The position numbers were made by a program, and so were the translations under genes. The notes under the pieces were generated by a model that was not told the DNA's origin, ran no database searches, and saw only the letters and a list, made by a program, of their open reading frames with translations. This document shows, piece by piece, positions 2 through 27,854 of a stretch of DNA of 33,431 nucleotides (within the stretch, counting starts at the first letter, position 1; the number at the start of each line of letters is the position of its first letter). Origin of the DNA: a virus; IMG/VR virus record IMGVR_UViG_3300023084_000075, positions 1-33,431 of that record; one strand, written 5' to 3'.

Positions 2-124
2 ATACACGGCTATGGAGCAAGTCAATCTCCTAATACCCGTATTAGTTTGGCTTGGAATATACTGCTCAATCAACCAGAACATCTTGCTCCACAAGGTTGG
101 TATCATATTAAGTTTGCAAAGTAA
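2..124 (+). CDS. C-terminal end of a probable 2OG-Fe(II) oxygenase (partial)
   Basis: An open frame enters from the window's left edge and stops with TAA at 122-124, giving 40 residues. The stretch TRISLAWNILL resembles the last strand of phage 2-oxoglutarate/Fe(II) dioxygenases, where an Arg in an RISxxxN context binds the 2OG carboxylate. A short tail ending in HIKFAK follows. The metal-binding HxD and most of the fold lie outside the window, so the family call rests on this one motif. The next gene starts 13 bases downstream and also has dioxygenase motifs, so the two are probably co-transcribed. Another beta-rich enzyme with a similar C-terminus is possible. Confidence 0.5.
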   Translation: MHGYGASQSPNTRISLAWNILLNQPEHLAPQGWYHIKFAK

Positions 125-137
125 TGAAGGAAACAAC

Positions 138-704
138 ATGATAGATAAAAATAGTATTATTGAAATCAATAATGTACTACCGGATAATTTATTAAAAGAA
201 TTTCAAACAGTATTAAATGGATACGATTTTCCTTGGTATTATAATGACGGCGCAACAGCAAAAGACAACCATCCTCAATTTACTCATGTTTTTTACGATC
301 ATCGACCAATAAGCGATTGGTGGATTTATCCTTTTACTATTAACAATTTTATTGCTAAAGAGTTAGATATTAATATGACTCCAAGGCGTGTAAAAGCAAA
401 TTATCAATATCCATTAGTATTATCAGATATTGATAAATTAAATAGAATCCATGCTGATATGCAATATGAATCAGAAGGCTTTTACAGTTTCATTTACTAT
501 CCGTTTGATTGTGACGGTGATACTATTTTATATAATCACTTCTATGGTGATGATTTAAATGATCTTTCGATTGCTAAATCTTATACACCTAAGGAAAATT
601 CAGCACTGTTTTTCTATAGTCACAGATTGCATCAAAGTATGCCTCCTGTAACTAATAAGAAAAGAATTGTGTTAAATTTTGTAAATTCTATTAGTAGCGA
701 ATAA
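138..704 (+). CDS. 2OG-Fe(II) dioxygenase-like protein, 188 aa
   Basis: Probably an iron- and 2-oxoglutarate-dependent hydroxylase. Visible catalytic residues are H105 and D107 (motif RIHADM), a distal His (H165 in RLHQSMPP, or H162) and R176 in KKRIVLNF, which would bind 2OG. The order and spacing match the cupin-like core of the family. The frame is open upstream to an ATG at 12, but the ATG at 138 is preferred: an AAGGA-type Shine-Dalgarno precedes it, and the upstream part overlaps the previous gene, which ends at 124. Its 3' end overlaps the convergent adhesin gene by 14 bases. Such enzymes are frequent in marine T4-like phages. The substrate is unknown; a virion protein or a sugar is possible given the neighbours, but that is inference. 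Confidence 0.7.
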   Translation: MIDKNSIIEINNVLPDNLLKEFQTVLNGYDFPWYYNDGATAKDNHPQFTHVFYDHRPISDWWIYPFTINNFIAKELDINMTPRRVKANYQYPLVLSDIDKLNRIHADMQYESEGFYSFIYYPFDCDGDTILYNHFYGDDLNDLSIAKSYTPKENSALFFYSHRLHQSMPPVTNKKRIVLNFVNSISSE

Positions 705-2310
705 CACAGTAACCATTACCACCTGACGAATTGTTACCGCCTATCGCGATAGGTGAACCTGGATAATCCGAATCACTCGAACCTTGAGATGGTAACGAAT
801 TATTGTTTCCAGTATATGTGTTACCATTACTTATTGTAAAGCCGCCACGTGAACCGCTGTGAACATATCCAGAGCCACCGCCTCCGGCGCCGTTGTTTGG
901 AGAACCGCCGCCTCCGCCACCGCCACCCCAGTAGCCGCCGCCACCGCCGCCACCGTTCGAACCACCGCCCGATGCTCCGTTGCCACCGTCTGGCCAACCT
1001 GCACCGTTTGGTGTATTACCTGTTCCACGGCCGCCGCTGAATGCTCCGCCTGTTACAGCATTTGGTGTACCTGCTGTATTATTACCATTTTGTCCGCCAG
1101 CAGATTGTGTTCCGCCACCACCGCCAGTACCATTACCACCTGAACGACTAGGTGCAGTTGAACGAGAATCGCCACCTTCGTCTAGACCGCCTTGACCTGA
1201 AGTTCCTCCGCCTGCGCCGGCGTGTTCTGCGCCAACATCGCCATGACTTGCGCCACCGCCACCAGCAACTAACAAAGCATTACCTTGAGATAATGATCCA
1301 GCACTCATAATAGATGTAGAACCACCACCTCCGCCACCGTTTCCACCGTTGAAGCCACCTTGACCTACATAAATGTATAGTGTTCCTGAACCAGTGATTT
1401 CGCCAGTTGTATAACCGCCAGAACCGCCAAACGAAGTACCAAAGTTACCAGTGTAACTCATGTCGCCACCTGCTCCCCAAAGTTTTGCGGTAACAGTAAC
1501 ACCAGCCGGGACAGAGAATGTTTGCGATCCTCCTGTATAACTGAATGTTTGGACAACAGGTGCATTTACTGTAATACTAAATGCTCTGTCTAAACTAATT
1601 CCACCAGCAGTTGCTCTAATTGTAAAATTATAAGTTGTGTTAGAACCTACAGCACTAACATTTCCGCTAATTGTGCCGTTGCTTGTGTTTAAAGTTGTTC
1701 CGTTTGGTAATGCACCACTCTGTAATGCATATGTTACAGCATCTCCGTCTGCGTCTGTTGCTTGAACCTGCACAGAATATCCCGAGCGTTGTAAATCATA
1801 AATTGTTCCTAAACTGCCTGCCGCAGTAGACCAAACAGGTTCTCTGTTAACGGTTCCTGCAGGATCTAAAAATGAACTTAAACCTGAAGGATTAACTACC
1901 TTGATACCGTATTGTGCGCCGCCTACAAAAGAAACACTGCTTGAATTTGTTGATGCTGTTAGTTCGCTTGAACTAACAAAAGTTGTAGATAATGCTCTTT
2001 CTATATTGCTTACGCCGGGCCCTGTAACATAAACTGAACTTCCGCTTTTAAAATTTGATCCTGATACAGTAATAGTAGTATCAGTATCTTCATAGATAGT
2101 TCCTGTTTGGTTTGTAACAACCGGAGGTGCGTCAATACCTGCCCAACCTGTTGCATTATACTGTTCTAAAAATCCTAAGTCAGTGTTATAACGTATTTTA
2201 CCTACTTCAGTAACAACTCTTTCTGCTGTAGTCCCTTTAGGTACAACAAGTCCGTCGGTACCATCAATGCGTAAATTTTTATTTTTTGCTTTGCTATAAT
2301 CAATAGCCAT
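691..2310 (-). CDS. Glycine-rich tail fibre tip / adhesin, 539 aa
   Basis: Probably a receptor-binding fibre or fibre-tip protein. Order of parts: an N-terminal cassette (about residues 20-60) of the type VPKGTTAER...GKIRYNT that also occurs in the neighbouring fibres; an IPT/TIG-like beta-sandwich (about 65-150); a putative Ig-like domain (about 155-250, with ALPNGTTLNTSNGTISG); then, from about 255, a very glycine-rich C-terminal domain with runs of G/S/N, opening with WGAGG and closing with NGYCVIRY. Glycine-rich domains with alternating loops are known in phage adhesins such as the gp38-type tips of T-even phages, where the loops set host range. It starts 2 bases after the stop of the 1671-aa fibre, so it is in the same unit, with a GAGG Shine-Dalgarno. 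The exact receptor is unknown. Confidence 0.7.
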   Translation of the reverse strand: MAIDYSKAKNKNLRIDGTDGLVVPKGTTAERVVTEVGKIRYNTDLGFLEQYNATGWAGIDAPPVVTNQTGTIYEDTDTTITVSGSNFKSGSSVYVTGPGVSNIERALSTTFVSSSELTASTNSSSVSFVGGAQYGIKVVNPSGLSSFLDPAGTVNREPVWSTAAGSLGTIYDLQRSGYSVQVQATDADGDAVTYALQSGALPNGTTLNTSNGTISGNVSAVGSNTTYNFTIRATAGGISLDRAFSITVNAPVVQTFSYTGGSQTFSVPAGVTVTAKLWGAGGDMSYTGNFGTSFGGSGGYTTGEITGSGTLYIYVGQGGFNGGNGGGGGGSTSIMSAGSLSQGNALLVAGGGGASHGDVGAEHAGAGGGTSGQGGLDEGGDSRSTAPSRSGGNGTGGGGGTQSAGGQNGNNTAGTPNAVTGGAFSGGRGTGNTPNGAGWPDGGNGASGGGSNGGGGGGGYWGGGGGGGGSPNNGAGGGGSGYVHSGSRGGFTISNGNTYTGNNNSLPSQGSSDSDYPGSPIAIGGNNSSGGNGYCVIRY

Positions 2311-2311
2311 A

Positions 2312-5300
2312 TTATACCTCCAATAACTTCCAACCGTATGTACTTCCAGTATATACTAACTGGAAACCAGCATTTTCTGTTGTTACGTTTAATGTATCTA
2401 CTACACCGTTAATTTTTTCAGAACCAGGATCAATTAAAGCATTATAAACATCAAATGTTCCTGCTAAATCCATAATTCTTATATTATCGCCAACTTGAGG
2501 ACTAGTGGGAAGATTAATAGTTATAGTAGTACCACCGCTAGTATCAACTAATAATCGATCATTGTTCGATGCTGTGTAAGGAGTTGTATTAACTACTGCC
2601 CACGGATTACCACCGCCAATTCCTGACCATTGTGTTCCATCGTAACCTTCAAATGTAGTTGTATCAGTATTAAATCTAAAATATCCACTTGCAGGACTTC
2701 CTGGTCTATTTGCAGTTGTTCCTTTTGGAACAAGAACATATTGACTTCCTATTTGTGCTACCTGTGTTCCGTTAATATCAAAATCAATTGTATCTGTTGC
2801 CGCTCCTGTGCCTGTGACTTCTACTTTAGATTGGGTTGGTGAATCACCAGCAACAATAGTACCTTGGCTAGCACTTAAATTATCAATCTCTTGATCTACG
2901 TAAGTTTTGACTGCCTTTTCGGTCGGTACTGCTGTATCTGAGTTATCAGCAAACGTACCATCTGTACTAAATTCATTGATTGTAGCACCTTGTTTACCTG
3001 CTGTAATAGATCCTAATTGTAATTCATTCAAACCAGCCAAGTCAAACTCTTCAGATGAAAGTGTGGCTCTACCTGTGGCCTGTTCAACTTTGAAGTAATC
3101 GCCAACTCGGAAGTTACCATCTTGGTCAGTGGTTACGTAGAATACTCGTCCACCATTTTCACTTAATGTTTCTCTGTTTTGATCCGGTTGTTGCGTATAG
3201 TCACTTGAAATAATAACCGGATAGTTTGTATCAGCAAATCCACCTGTACCAATATCTAAGAAGTCGTGTCCACTCATACGCACTTGACTGTATGCTTCAC
3301 GGAACGTAATATGAGTTAAATCGTTTGGTGTCTTGTTACTTGGAATCGGAGGATCAATACCAATAGTAGCGGTACCATAATTTGTTTTTGCTGGAGCACT
3401 ATCTAAACCATTAGTGATTGTATCAATAAACCCTTGAACATTATTTTCTGTTAGTGTAACTGACCCTGCTTCTGTAGCAGTTAATCCTGTAGTTTGTGAT
3501 ACAGCATTACCACTCGATGGTGTAATCGGGTTTTGATTTAAAATGTCATCTACAATAGATTTAAAATAAGTCCATGCCGCGGAATTTTGTGCATTTTCAT
3601 TATTGATAGAATATAATCCACTTGCATTATCCCAATATGAATATGCCGCATCTATAGTGTTTCCGTTTGAATTATAGTCTAAGTCGGTAATCAATGCGTC
3701 AACAACTAATCCAACATCTCTTTCACAAGTTGCTTCATCATAACTAAATCCACTCCATATACCTGCGCCGCCTGCTATCTGAACAGCAAGCCAAGCAGTA
3801 ATTTCTGCTTGTAAAAATGATTTGTTTGCGGTTAAAATTGCTTGTGCATTTAGATTATTACCTGTTGTATAACTAGGTGCTAAGTAATTTGCAACACTAA
3901 TAACAAAATAAGTTTCGCTGTCACCATTAATTTGTAATACTGAACCATCTTTTGGTAGTCTATTCAAACTGTCAACACTAAATGAAGTACCTCTACCAAT
4001 ACCAGCAAAACCTGCTCTTGTTGCTACAACTGTTCTTGTTTGACTCGGTGATTGATTTAATGTTAATGTTGTATCGGTTAAGCCTAATGTAACAGAATAA
4101 CTGTCAATTCCCTGAATTGTTTTTAATACAACAGTATCAGTTGTTACTGTTGATCCGGTGCTTGCTTCGTCAGCAACAGCATAACTTCCGCTAGTTACAG
4201 TTCCAATTCCGCCTGATTGATCACGTTGTATGTTAACAATAACACTATTTGCTTCTTCAATACCTGCGGTAATTACGTTAATACCATCAAGCATTACTCC
4301 TTTAAGTGCAATATTATTAGTTCCGTTAGTTGCTTGATAATTCCAAATCATAGATCCTGCAGATGAATAACGTACTATCAATCCTGCATTATTAGTATTT
4401 GAATTATCATTAATATATCCAACAGCGTATACATCATTGCCAAATGCCAACACATCTGTAAATTCACCATTTTCAGTACCAAATACTTGTTGTGATTGCC
4501 ATGCAATATTTCCGTCAACTGTTATTCTAAAAATCAAAGGACGTTTAGTAACAGCACCTGCAGGATCATAATAGCCGCCTGCTACTAGATAAATGCCATC
4601 GCCGTTACCTGTATCAAGATCTAAAGAATTAATCCTTACATCACCGTACTCATAGTTTGCTACATAGGCTCCGTTTGATGAAACCCTTGTAATTAATGCT
4701 TGATTAACAGTGCTATCATAACTTGCTATATATAAGTTACCTTCTGCTGTTGCGTCGCCGGCGAGTGCATACGTGTCTGTTGATGTTGTTGGAGTTTTAG
4801 CAACTGTACAACTTGTTGGTACAACAGTATTAGTTGCACTTGAATCATTATAGTCTAAGTTAGTTGACCACTGCTCAACACCTGCTGGATTAATTTTAAT
4901 AGCAGTCATTCCTGAAGTTGTATGTGTACCAACAGCATATAAATTATTGTCATCTGTTGTTACATCTACAATTTCACTTGTGTTACCTACTGTTTTTTGC
5001 CATTGGATTTCACCTGCTTTTGAAATAGCAAGAATGAATCCTTTGTTTTGACCGCCGTCATAAATTACGCCACCTGCATAGTATCTATCACTTACTTCTA
5101 CTACCGAATGAATAGCACCAAATGAACTCTCATATGTATAAATCCAATCTAAACTACCTGCTGAATTATACTTTGCAATAAACGGATAACTTGCTGTATT
5201 ATCCCAACTCGATGTTACATCAGTTCCGGTTGGCGCAGTATGTCCAACAAAAATTCTGTTACCTACAGTATCTCTGTAACTTGTAAACACATGTACACTT

Positions 5301-7327
5301 GTTCCAAGTTGTGTTACTGAATCAATTGTTTTATCGTTAAGTCTTAATTTACCTCTTAACGGTGTTTCTGTTTGTGAATAACCTCTTGCAACAGCACCAT
5401 ATTCTCCATAGGAGTTGTTACCAACAATAGCACGAATTTTACCTCCGCTTTCAGCAAGGTAACCAATATTACAATAGTATGTAAAGCATGATACAATTTC
5501 TGAACGTCCGTCGTTTAATACGTGAATACCAATACCATCACTGTTGATTTGTGTAAAGTCATTGTTAACAATTGACTTATAACCACCGTTGTGTAATGCA
5601 CCGTCTACCTTCATACCAGTTCCGCCTGGTGAGAAGTTTGTACAGTTTTGTACATACGGTGACTGTGATGTAATCCAAACTGAAGTATCGTCTGGCCCAG
5701 TACCAGGATCAAGTGATACCTGTGTACTTCCTGTTGAGAAGTTTCGGAATACAAAGTTACGAATACGTGTTCCGTTGTTTACAAGAAACACTTCTGAATT
5801 AGCATTAGGTGTTGAACCATCACTTGAAATACCTACACCATAACCTTTATCGTTTGTTGTATCTGGTGAAATCGTAACAGCACCAAGACCATTACCTTCC
5901 ATTACAACACCACGGCCTAATCTAATAGGACATAGTTCTTCATATGTACCCGAACTTACGTTAATGCGACACTGACCTAAACTAAATGTTTGCTCGGCCG
6001 CGTGTTGTAGTGTACGCCAACTGTTTGTAGGAGTTCTACCGTCATTACTATCACTACCTTGTGGAGATACATAATAATCGTTTTGTGGTGTTAGGTGACC
6101 CCAACTCGGAATACCATTGTTTACACTTAAAAATGCACCACTTGGTCCAATTGGTAGTCTTTCAATATTACCACTAGCATTGCGATAAATCATATCGCCT
6201 GTAGTTGTCATTGGTGAACTAATATCTCCCTGTGACATTAATTCCCACTTGCTAGGATCTGTTCCTGGAGTTACACCAACAACGTCATCACCGATACAAA
6301 TAAACGAACTGCCTGAATATTCTACTACATCTCCGTATTCATATTCTGTGCCGCCGGCATATGTACCTTTCCAACTAAACCCTTCTGTAAATACTTCCCA
6401 ATATTGTGATGCAGGTGGTTCAGTTGATGTTGACCCATCGTTTTCGTAACTTTCAATACAAATGTAAGTTCTACCACCTAGTTTAACAATGTCACCTAAA
6501 GAATAATCTGTTGCAGATTGCCATAGACCTTTGTATGTTAAACCGCTTGTGAATAATGTAAAACTATTTGTTTGATCTGGTCTTTGACCTTTGATTTCTG
6601 TTGTACATAGATAGACATACGAACCATACTTAACAATTTCGCCAGGCAAATATTCTGTTGCACTAGACCAACTACCTTTCCAACTAAATCCACTAAGAAT
6701 TTTACTAAAGTTATCTGTATCAGTTGGACGAATTGCTAAAGGTCTTTTTCCTTCTTTAACTACATATCGATTACCACCATATAGCATAGTATCACCTGGA
6801 CGGTATTGTACTGCTTCAGTCCAAGTACTACCAACTACTTCTTCGTAACCTTTTGCATATACGTCCCAATATGTTGTATTAGTTGGGTTATTGTTTAATG
6901 AATTCTGTTTAGCAACATATAGGTATCCGCCATAATAAACAATATCGCCTTTTTGATAGTTTGTTGATATACTCCAGTTTCCTTCAAACTGTTGTCCGTC
7001 TACAAATTTTGCCCAATATGATACATTGTCATATGGATTAATATTTGTATGTTCTTGTAAACACACATAAACAGCACCACCGTAGGTTACCGTTTGTCCT
7101 TTTTTGTATAATGTTGATTGATTCCAAGTTCCGGCGCTTTCTAGGCCTTCTGCCATTACCTCAAATTTAGCAGAATTGTTAACAAAAGCACTTGCACTAG
7201 TATGAGCGTCCACACAAACGTAAACGCTAGGACCATATTTTACTATGTCATCTTTGTTGTATGCTGTAGAAGGTGCCCATTCGCCCTTCCAAGTAAACTT
7301 TAAATTTCCTAGGTTAATTACTGTCAT
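2312..7327 (-). CDS. Giant modular tail fibre protein, 1671 aa
   Basis: A virion fibre built from recognisable modules. Residues about 9-375 hold seven tandem repeats of about 50 aa with the pattern W-K-G-x-W...Y..GD-I-V-x-Y-G-G...Y-V-C, resembling carbohydrate-binding modules of family 5/12. A fibre linker (PMTTTGDMIYRNASG) follows. From about 416 a right-handed beta-helix-like region begins (YYVSPQGSDSNDGRTP). Residues about 680-1030 carry repeated strands of the type GNDVYAVGY and AKYNSAGSLDWIY, suggesting a beta-propeller. A module at about 1355-1440 (SENGGRVFYVTTDQDGNFRVG) is shared with the 1557-aa fibre. A GTTANRPGSPASGYFRFNT cassette lies at about 1532-1570. The start overlaps the 86-aa gene by 4 bases (ATGA). 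The fold assignments are inferred from sequence patterns only. Confidence 0.75.
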   Translation of the reverse strand: MTVINLGNLKFTWKGEWAPSTAYNKDDIVKYGPSVYVCVDAHTSASAFVNNSAKFEVMAEGLESAGTWNQSTLYKKGQTVTYGGAVYVCLQEHTNINPYDNVSYWAKFVDGQQFEGNWSISTNYQKGDIVYYGGYLYVAKQNSLNNNPTNTTYWDVYAKGYEEVVGSTWTEAVQYRPGDTMLYGGNRYVVKEGKRPLAIRPTDTDNFSKILSGFSWKGSWSSATEYLPGEIVKYGSYVYLCTTEIKGQRPDQTNSFTLFTSGLTYKGLWQSATDYSLGDIVKLGGRTYICIESYENDGSTSTEPPASQYWEVFTEGFSWKGTYAGGTEYEYGDVVEYSGSSFICIGDDVVGVTPGTDPSKWELMSQGDISSPMTTTGDMIYRNASGNIERLPIGPSGAFLSVNNGIPSWGHLTPQNDYYVSPQGSDSNDGRTPTNSWRTLQHAAEQTFSLGQCRINVSSGTYEELCPIRLGRGVVMEGNGLGAVTISPDTTNDKGYGVGISSDGSTPNANSEVFLVNNGTRIRNFVFRNFSTGSTQVSLDPGTGPDDTSVWITSQSPYVQNCTNFSPGGTGMKVDGALHNGGYKSIVNNDFTQINSDGIGIHVLNDGRSEIVSCFTYYCNIGYLAESGGKIRAIVGNNSYGEYGAVARGYSQTETPLRGKLRLNDKTIDSVTQLGTSVHVFTSYRDTVGNRIFVGHTAPTGTDVTSSWDNTASYPFIAKYNSAGSLDWIYTYESSFGAIHSVVEVSDRYYAGGVIYDGGQNKGFILAISKAGEIQWQKTVGNTSEIVDVTTDDNNLYAVGTHTTSGMTAIKINPAGVEQWSTNLDYNDSSATNTVVPTSCTVAKTPTTSTDTYALAGDATAEGNLYIASYDSTVNQALITRVSSNGAYVANYEYGDVRINSLDLDTGNGDGIYLVAGGYYDPAGAVTKRPLIFRITVDGNIAWQSQQVFGTENGEFTDVLAFGNDVYAVGYINDNSNTNNAGLIVRYSSAGSMIWNYQATNGTNNIALKGVMLDGINVITAGIEEANSVIVNIQRDQSGGIGTVTSGSYAVADEASTGSTVTTDTVVLKTIQGIDSYSVTLGLTDTTLTLNQSPSQTRTVVATRAGFAGIGRGTSFSVDSLNRLPKDGSVLQINGDSETYFVISVANYLAPSYTTGNNLNAQAILTANKSFLQAEITAWLAVQIAGGAGIWSGFSYDEATCERDVGLVVDALITDLDYNSNGNTIDAAYSYWDNASGLYSINNENAQNSAAWTYFKSIVDDILNQNPITPSSGNAVSQTTGLTATEAGSVTLTENNVQGFIDTITNGLDSAPAKTNYGTATIGIDPPIPSNKTPNDLTHITFREAYSQVRMSGHDFLDIGTGGFADTNYPVIISSDYTQQPDQNRETLSENGGRVFYVTTDQDGNFRVGDYFKVEQATGRATLSSEEFDLAGLNELQLGSITAGKQGATINEFSTDGTFADNSDTAVPTEKAVKTYVDQEIDNLSASQGTIVAGDSPTQSKVEVTGTGAATDTIDFDINGTQVAQIGSQYVLVPKGTTANRPGSPASGYFRFNTDTTTFEGYDGTQWSGIGGGNPWAVVNTTPYTASNNDRLLVDTSGGTTITINLPTSPQVGDNIRIMDLAGTFDVYNALIDPGSEKINGVVDTLNVTTENAGFQLVYTGSTYGWKLLEV

Positions 7328-27422: not shown

Positions 27423-27854
27423 TTATGTGTTGCCTAATTTTTCTAGTGCTTCTTTTAGAACTTTTGAGCCGCCTACTCTTACATTAATAATTCCGTTATA
27501 ATACTCGTCTGTTTCTAATACTCTGCGGTCAAACTGTTCTTTTGCCTCGAGGTAACTCATCAAGCCTCTGCTATTACAGTAGTGGAGAATTTCGCGTGTG
27601 AACTTTTCTGGGCCTAGTGCCTTAACGTCTGCCTGTAAATGATCTGAAGATCCCCAATAGTCTCTCCAATCACTTTCAACTTTGCTTCTTCGTTTGTTTT
27701 TCTTGCCTTTAAGAGGTGGCTTTGTTTTCTTGAATTTTGCTAGTTTTTTGCCTACGTACTTGCGATTGTTGGTAGTGTTTGTTATCAGGTATACAAAACC
27801 TTCGCAATCTGCGGGAAGTTCTTGTACTATTTTGCCCTGATAAGTCCACTCCAT
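27423..27854 (-). CDS. GIY-YIG-like nuclease family protein, 143 aa
   Basis: The N-terminal motif GFVYLITNTTNNRKYVGKK (residues 19-37) matches the GIY...YIG signature in relaxed form (FVY/YVG). Further signs are a very basic stretch (about 40-58), WRDYWGSSDHLQ (63-74) and E103 in SYLEAKEQ, a candidate for the catalytic Glu. The reaction would be cutting of DNA, perhaps at branched or specific sites. It lies directly downstream of gp47, gp46 and a small basic gene in one unit, so a part in recombination or DNA degradation is plausible. A homing endonuclease is less likely because it does not interrupt a gene. The start has only a weak ribosome site. Confidence 0.65.
   Translation of the reverse strand: MEWTYQGKIVQELPADCEGFVYLITNTTNNRKYVGKKLAKFKKTKPPLKGKKNKRRSKVESDWRDYWGSSDHLQADVKALGPEKFTREILHYCNSRGLMSYLEAKEQFDRRVLETDEYYNGIINVRVGGSKVLKEALEKLGNT

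Follow-up and report, generated by a model that had tools for sequence, protein, structure and literature searches.

Does a marine phage tail fibre that opens with a row of chitin-binding-like modules bind a polysaccharide, or do the modules serve another purpose? The window analysed here is a stretch of 33,431 bases from an IMG/VR virus record. Its fibre gene lies on the minus strand, where a frame of 1671 residues begins at an ATG; the plus strand of the same span carries stops throughout. The first-pass annotation had placed the fibre in this frame, had read it as seven carbohydrate-binding-like repeats followed by a beta-helix and a propeller-like region, and had proposed multivalent binding of a polysaccharide such as capsule or chitin. 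The frame and the list of domains hold up, the beta-helix as a plausible assignment only. For the array itself, we consider the best reading to be a docking domain plus a modular shaft that has probably lost its chitin-binding function.

Seven CBM5/12-like modules open the fibre

We began from the domain family of the N-terminal repeats. Pfam CBM_5_12 matches the whole fibre at 100.5 bits, against a cut-off of 26.2 (E 5.1e-29), and a search of NCBIfam gave no match at E 0.01. Six stretches individually reach E ≤1; place by place, two of these six matches pass the cut-off alone, one does so with its neighbours and three fall below it, and module 4 has no Pfam match of its own. An HMM trained on the seven modules together with related ones recovers all seven at E 4e-13 or better, a figure that is circular by construction. 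Together, the Pfam match and the HMM confirm the seven tandem modules of about 50 residues that the annotation had described, which span residues 12–367. The repeat motif it had written down is present but looser: its GD is DD, GQ or GE in modules 1, 2 and 5, its first W is Y in module 7, and its final C/V is A in module 3.

In a predicted structure of residues 1–1060 (model 1, built on a 36-row alignment), the array shows a repeated strand pattern with pLDDT mostly 80–92, falling to 66–73 at residues 291–310. The structure-match list of model 1 is filled by the propeller, the modules having been searched only as part of the whole model. By sequence, the PDB entries closest to the array are the chitin-binding domain (ChBD) of chitinase A1 (1ed7, E 1.8e-4) and a group of chitin-oligosaccharide deacetylases. 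Some predicted structures that match the fibre are labelled 'Carbohydrate-binding module family 5/12' or 'ChiC_BD domain containing protein', and such labels invite chitin stories. All3316 (Cis13 of the Anabaena CIS) reaches only E 0.014 to 0.089 against the array and is kept as a lead. Behind the modules come, in order, a linker, a probable beta-helix, a propeller, an optional helical insert, the segment C1c, a shaft and a C-terminal tip (Table 1).

Table 1. Features of the fibre gene and of other genes in the window (positions in the window; aa, fibre residues)
Feature	aa	Position	Strand	Evidence or remark
Whole fibre gene	1–1671	2312..7327	-	ORF; Pfam CBM_5_12; PHROG 9851 'tail fiber protein' 1.4e-190
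N-terminal tip (MTVINLGNLKF), probable virion arm	1–11	7295..7327	-	Pattern in array ORFs
Module 1, probable docking module; loop H42-T-S...F48	12–61	7145..7294	-	Loop conservation
Module 2, nearest to chitinase A1 ChBD	62–111	6995..7144	-	1ed7 E 1.8e-4; module HMM
Module 3	112–160	6848..6994	-	Module HMM; 7-7-1 fibre (E 0.076) and All3316 (E 0.014) matched weakly
Module 4, variable	161–213	6689..6847	-	Module HMM; 27–61% identity in the 7 of 8 close relatives with this module
Module 5, variable	214–262	6542..6688	-	Module HMM; 29–88% identity to close relatives
Module 6, variable	263–316	6380..6541	-	Module HMM; 35–89% identity to close relatives
Module 7	317–367	6227..6379	-	Module HMM; 37–75% identity to close relatives
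Probable beta-helix	413–660	5348..6091	-	PHROG tail-fibre/baseplate matches; low-confidence model
7-bladed beta-propeller	661–1048	4184..5347	-	CylK 7roo match; designed-propeller sequence match
Optional alpha-helical insert	1151–1318	3374..3877	-	Helices in model
C1c, most conserved segment	1319–1440	3008..3373	-	86–96% identity in 8 close relatives
C-terminal tip domain	1571–1671	2315..2617	-	CBA120 TSP4 and T4 gp9 structure matches
Next gene, 539 aa, Gly-rich, He_PIG, candidate tip adhesin		691..2310	-	Pfam He_PIG 1.6e-12; adjoins fibre
SegE-type GIY-YIG endonuclease		27423..27854	-	Pfam PF19835, 1.2e-35
2OG-Fe(II) oxygenase-like protein		12..704	+	Below Pfam cut-off (22.7 of 27 bits); strand opposite fibre

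Known chitin-contacting residues are gone from the phage modules

CBM5 domains carry the motif AKWWT, and the binding Trp of chitinase A1 is W687. We took the CBM5 aromatic pair to lie 3–7 residues after the strand Tyr, an assumption based in part on the spacing in PMC8449059. The accessible text of that source has chitin bound by two consecutive exposed aromatics and a third; in its example the pair sits at 282–283, and the core Tyr/Trp residues at 265 and 299 (PMC8449059). The residues in the annotation's motif are of the core kind, which belongs to the fold, and not of the binding kind.

We counted both kinds in the 773 phage modules among the matches listed. Here aromatics occupy the six core columns in 84–100% of modules, whereas the CBM5 aromatic pair and the CBM12 loop GW[ET]P each occur in 0 of 773, and 2 modules have a Trp in that loop. 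Among the same 773 listed modules, 21 have a single aromatic in residues 3–5 after the strand Tyr and 264 have F, Y or W anywhere in the CBM12 loop, most regularly first modules; F48 of module 1 in the window is an aromatic near the CBM12 Trp position. The ChBD of Bacillus circulans chitinase A1 (1ED7, CBM12) shares the core W/Y/Y/Y, the Y-x-C and the HTS with the phage modules and differs from them in its GW(E/T)P loop. As a control, we used CBM12 domains to collect 80 bacterial loci, which yielded 96 distinct domains. Loop Trp and loop Pro are each present in 96/96 of these, a result that leans towards Trp, the scan patterns lying outside the loop but the ranking and domain calling having used Trp-bearing sequences, and that covers CBM12 domains, not CBM5. 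As read from the sequences, the known chitin-binding face is missing across the sampled phage family. The residue test suggests that the CBM5/12 label gives ancestry, not function.

If the array were a multivalent lectin for chitin or capsule, holding phages on particles or host glycans, the Pfam match and the chitinase and deacetylase domains closest to it in the PDB would be as expected, but the aromatics that contact chitin in cellular CBM12 domains would not be gone from the phage modules, and the solved relatives would not put such domains at the baseplate (below). The accessible text of PMC10651935 adds that Synechococcus WH7803 has chitinase activity, a point that could count in favour of a lectin. 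We rejected a chitin or capsule lectin on the residue counts, bearing in mind the control's lean towards Trp and its restriction to CBM12, and now regard it as very improbable. The annotation had named two outcomes that would tell against its proposal. One, loss of the binding aromatics in relatives, is what the counts give (0, 2 and 0 of 773); the other, absence of a CBM-like fold, is not borne out by sequence, the relation to CBM5/12 being real. Through other residues the modules may still bind a different glycan.

Relatives of the modules dock other fibres and spikes

The array is related in sequence to a solved fibre, gp015 of Agrobacterium phage 7-7-1. A profile of five arrays matches its structure (9rkv_M) over residues 27–120 (E 2.3e-4), the 36-row profile does so over residues 29–102 (E 1.1e-5), and the module HMM finds gp015 at 2e-9 in two domain lines; module 3 alone reaches only E 0.076. 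Foldseek of model 1 against 9rkv_M gives E 1.4e-8, but with TM-scores of 0.08/0.14, an rmsd of 35.6 and the matched range not shown. According to the accessible text, the long fibre of 7-7-1 is a trimer in which residues 1–120 form the baseplate anchor and residues 177–453 a beta-helix (PMC12796354); 'carbohydrate', 'CBM' and 'chitin' have 0 matches in the text of that paper. Like the window fibre, gp015 (PDB 9RKV) combines CBM12-like N-terminal modules with a beta-helix and a C-terminal beta domain. Unlike it, gp015 has two module matches instead of seven, is 587 residues long and has no named propeller. Its trimeric state and its anchoring to the baseplate by residues 1–120 are features that the window fibre would share.

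The tailspike gp124 of Agrobacterium phage Milano offers a second solved case, here taken from the available portion of its report (PMC10811340). Its N-terminal module is wedged between the wedge proteins BW2 and BW3, with contact loops 55-VPPGTP-60 and 100-RTDLPPGPFDPANWQ-115, and its authors term the docking site unusual. Milano and 7-7-1 are 75.5% identical over the two-module stretch, and the 7-7-1 motifs that resemble the Milano contact loops are flanked by the last strand Tyr and the core Trp. We infer from the sequences that this contact-loop position would be the binding-loop position of chitinases. Small N-terminal domains wedged among wedge proteins and Pro-rich contact loops make gp124 comparable to the fibre; it differs in docking at the sheath–baseplate junction and in having Pro-rich loops where the window has HTS...F. 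Its published globular domains, 26–120 and 121–175, also differ from the module limits found here: both 7-7-1 modules fall inside the Milano-type domain 26–120, 121–175 has no module match, and the units do not coincide.

The head-binding subdomain D2 of CBA120 TSP1, in the virion-binding region of that protein, has the chitinase A1 ChBD fold (1ED7, rmsd 2.1 over 38 CA); in the accessible text, the authors who found this in 2014 called its 'significance unknown' (PMC3966878). One such subdomain is described there, with very low identity to 1ED7, and we liken it to the modules by description. The residue test bears on the question left open in 2014.

Sequence relation to solved docking modules and an N-terminal position with variable distal parts were both found for the array. 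The first module lies within the first 30 residues in 129/129 ORFs among the matches listed, a bias partly built in by retrieval with N-terminal patterns. The array belongs to a known kind of domain, CBM12-like and virion-binding, that occurs in tail fibres and spikes. Its novelty lies in its length, in a module count that is conserved, and in the loss of the known ligand residues across the whole sample; none of the few papers found on CBM5 or CBM_5_12 in phage tails has a title about fibre arrays.

The first modules are conserved and the later ones vary

To follow the array across relatives, viral loci were collected with an array query that returned at least 600 candidate stretches. Of these, 300 were confirmed and 80 of the 300 kept, and additional searches brought the total to 100 loci, some of which overlap on the same contig. 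Among the matches listed, one or more modules are present in 129 distinct ORFs: one module in 19, two in 4, five in 6, six in 18, seven in 53, eight in 26, nine in 1 and ten in 2, which makes 106 arrays of five or more (5–10). One array ORF (L019) is cut by the contig end. Isolates that have such a fibre include Pelagibacter phage Mosig and Synechococcus phage S-CAM1. Behind these 106 listed arrays we found the beta-helix in 88, C1c in 83, the C-terminal tip in 33 and the propeller in 12, the last forming one clade that includes the window.

Several unusual arrangements appeared in this sample. Synechococcus phage S-BM3 has a five-module array alone as a separate 297-residue protein (L011:5992-6891). 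In Vibrio phage Yong XC31 a protein consists almost wholly of modules (L189:2009-6367, E 1.5e-78), with 24 domain lines in the module HMM search, 19 of them marked significant. Three arrays (L071:1126-7092, L075:8001-13496 and L082:7992-14111) contain insertions of ~100–280 residues and still count eight modules.

Conservation is uneven along the array. Modules 1–3 are 49–92% identical to the window in 8 close relatives; modules 4–7 are 61–89% identical in the nearest relative (L002) and 27–75% in the remaining close relatives, module 4 being present in 7/8. The N-terminal tip mostly reads xx(F/I)xLG(R/N)(L/I)(K/R)F among the array ORFs listed. Other fibres in the sampled loci start with a similar tip and one module and continue into different distal parts. 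In the first modules of the arrays among the matches listed, the loop position is His in 106/106 and the loop holds F/Y in 105/106; H42 and F48 of the window are invariant across the 36 alignment rows. Module 2 retains a CBM12-like CLQxHT stretch.

This signature of module 1, stronger than that of the other modules, would suit a fibre that binds a different glycan or surface polymer by another face, with module 1 as the lectin and the others as spacers. Module 1, however, adjoins the N-terminus, the anchoring end of the protein in both 7-7-1 and Milano, and is common to fibres with different distal parts, as a docking module predicts; we therefore judge a lectin at this place improbable. A second possibility is that the array is a spacer only and the N-terminal tip alone anchors the fibre. 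The range of 5–10 modules in 106 arrays, the long insertions tolerated within arrays, the variability of modules 4–7 and the stand-alone protein of S-BM3 all agree with a spacer, yet modules 1–3 are more conserved than a spacer requires, and the module region is itself a contact region in both 7-7-1 and Milano. We rate a spacer-only array as rather unlikely, noting that for modules 4–7 it overlaps with docking plus shaft and that the two are not exclusive.

Tandem long-array fibre genes mostly carry equal numbers of modules

We then compared neighbouring fibre genes, taking only pairs in which both genes have four or more modules. Among at least 111 sequence-distinct adjacent pairs, the counts are 7/7 in 80, 8/8 in 29, and 8/7 and 6/7 once each, so that 109/111 of the pairs listed are equal (including those of loci L060 and L031). 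All of the first 19 pairs, from 19/86 loci, have equal counts. Those 19 served as seeds for the scans behind the larger set, in which the best 80 of 519 confirmed stretches and the best 80 of 561 were kept, and it still includes near-identical contigs. One unequal pair has a 30-residue partial match and the other a 200-residue gap in its array; both may be counting errors.

In one tree all B copies group in a single clade, with two groups of A copies outside it. Tandem partners are thus old paralogues, and their shared count was therefore either inherited or co-adjusted. A separate FastTree phylogeny, computed with no bootstrap, offers three independent contrasts, two in the same direction, none opposite and one without change in B; because there are only three, co-adjustment lies beyond a statistical test. 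Given the seeded scans, the near-identical contigs and these three contrasts, we rejected treating each of the 19 or 111 matched pairs as independent evidence. Equal counts despite old paralogy may, at less than even odds, mean that the two fibres are neighbours on the virion and have to match in length.

The rule is limited to pairs of long arrays, because a long array also adjoins a single-module gene in several loci (L091, L094, L096, L098, L099 and L101 of the 6-module type, L076, L097), which makes a match in length somewhat less likely. In L096:7057-13958, L094 and L099, a six-module fibre gene is followed by a one-module fibre gene. Three contigs carry two propeller-clade array fibres each: L012/L018, ~25 kb apart, L004/L022 and L005/L026. 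The counts of these non-adjacent pairs are 7 vs 8 and 6 vs 7 in L012/L018 and L005/L026, and equal at 7 and 7 in L004/L022.

More tentatively, and again at less than even odds, a former chitin-binding module may have been recruited as a standard component of phage tails, with the ligand loop now a baseplate plug and the copy number a ruler. If matched counts act as a ruler, the length-setting element of long phage fibres would become testable by module deletions.

Distal domains and the neighbouring gene

Close inspection of the parts behind the array gave assignments of uneven strength. The beta-helix is plausible from its PHROG tail-fibre matches but not proven, because pLDDT is <50 for residues 528–673 of model 1. 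The propeller-like region of the annotation, by contrast, is well founded in both sequence (designed propellers, E 4.6e-11) and model, where pLDDT is mostly 75–92 with stretches at 54–74. Its best structural match is CylK (7roo; Z 40.7, rmsd 2.9, 337 aligned, 17% identity); the next non-CylK entry has Z 31.4, and 7-bladed designer propellers about 31. The likeness to CylK (7ROO) concerns the propeller only and was drawn by fold. CylK comes from the cyanobacterium Cylindospermum licheniforme, and the CylK-like propeller occurs in one clade only (12/106 arrays).

Model 2 covers residues 1040–1671 with a poor overall pLDDT (57). The helical insert is essentially absent in 4/8 close relatives (5–7 of 168 positions aligned). 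Its structural matches are phycobiliproteins and globin domains, with Z up to 10.6, within the chance range; we rejected a phycobiliprotein, Z 10.6 being below the tool's chance level for helical models.

The C-terminal tip is modelled with a pLDDT of about 90. It matches residues 78–177 of CBA120 TSP4 (Z 17.9, rmsd 1.3, 99 aligned) and, at Z 12.4 each, T4 gp9 (1qex) and the T4 baseplate chain 5iv5_AC, which from its length we take to be gp10; Foldseek also matches it to gp10 (2fl8_A) at E 3.5e-3. Domains of the gp9/TSP4 kind carry other proteins in T4 and CBA120. The Gly-rich He_PIG protein of the next gene, which we presume to resemble the gp38-type adhesins of T-even phages, has relatives in Methylophilales and Pelagibacter phages. 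Among the matches listed, such a gene stands behind 11/73 array ORFs with room for one, including Mosig, and behind 7/9 of those listed for the window's clade; the remainder of the 73 are followed by another array gene (19), by something else (41) or by none found (2). As gene order suggests, the C-terminal tip probably carries the Gly-rich protein.

Proposed docking through a former ligand loop

On the reading that we prefer and consider likely, docking plus shaft, the seven modules would be derived from CBM12 and would no longer bind chitin. They would constitute the end of the tail fibre nearest the virion, and the fibre itself would by analogy be a trimer. The N-terminal tip and module 1, probably modules 1–3, would dock onto the baseplate via the loop that in chitinases holds the chitin-contacting aromatics. 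The remaining modules would make up a shaft, variable in sequence and nearly fixed in length, that sets the reach of the fibre. The beta-helix, the propeller and a gp9/TSP4-like tip would follow distally, and the Gly-rich protein, probably borne by the tip, would recognise the receptor at the distal end. Among the points that count against this reading, seven modules exceed what docking needs, and both the CLQxHT of module 2 and the F48 of module 1 are retained.

Other genes of the window

The portal protein of the window is nearest to those of Agrobacterium and Sinorhizobium phages (50–52%). Elsewhere, the window encodes a SegE-type endonuclease and a 2OG-Fe(II) oxygenase-like protein (Table 1). 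In Mosig, the region downstream of the fibre encodes four putative 2OG-Fe(II) oxygenases.
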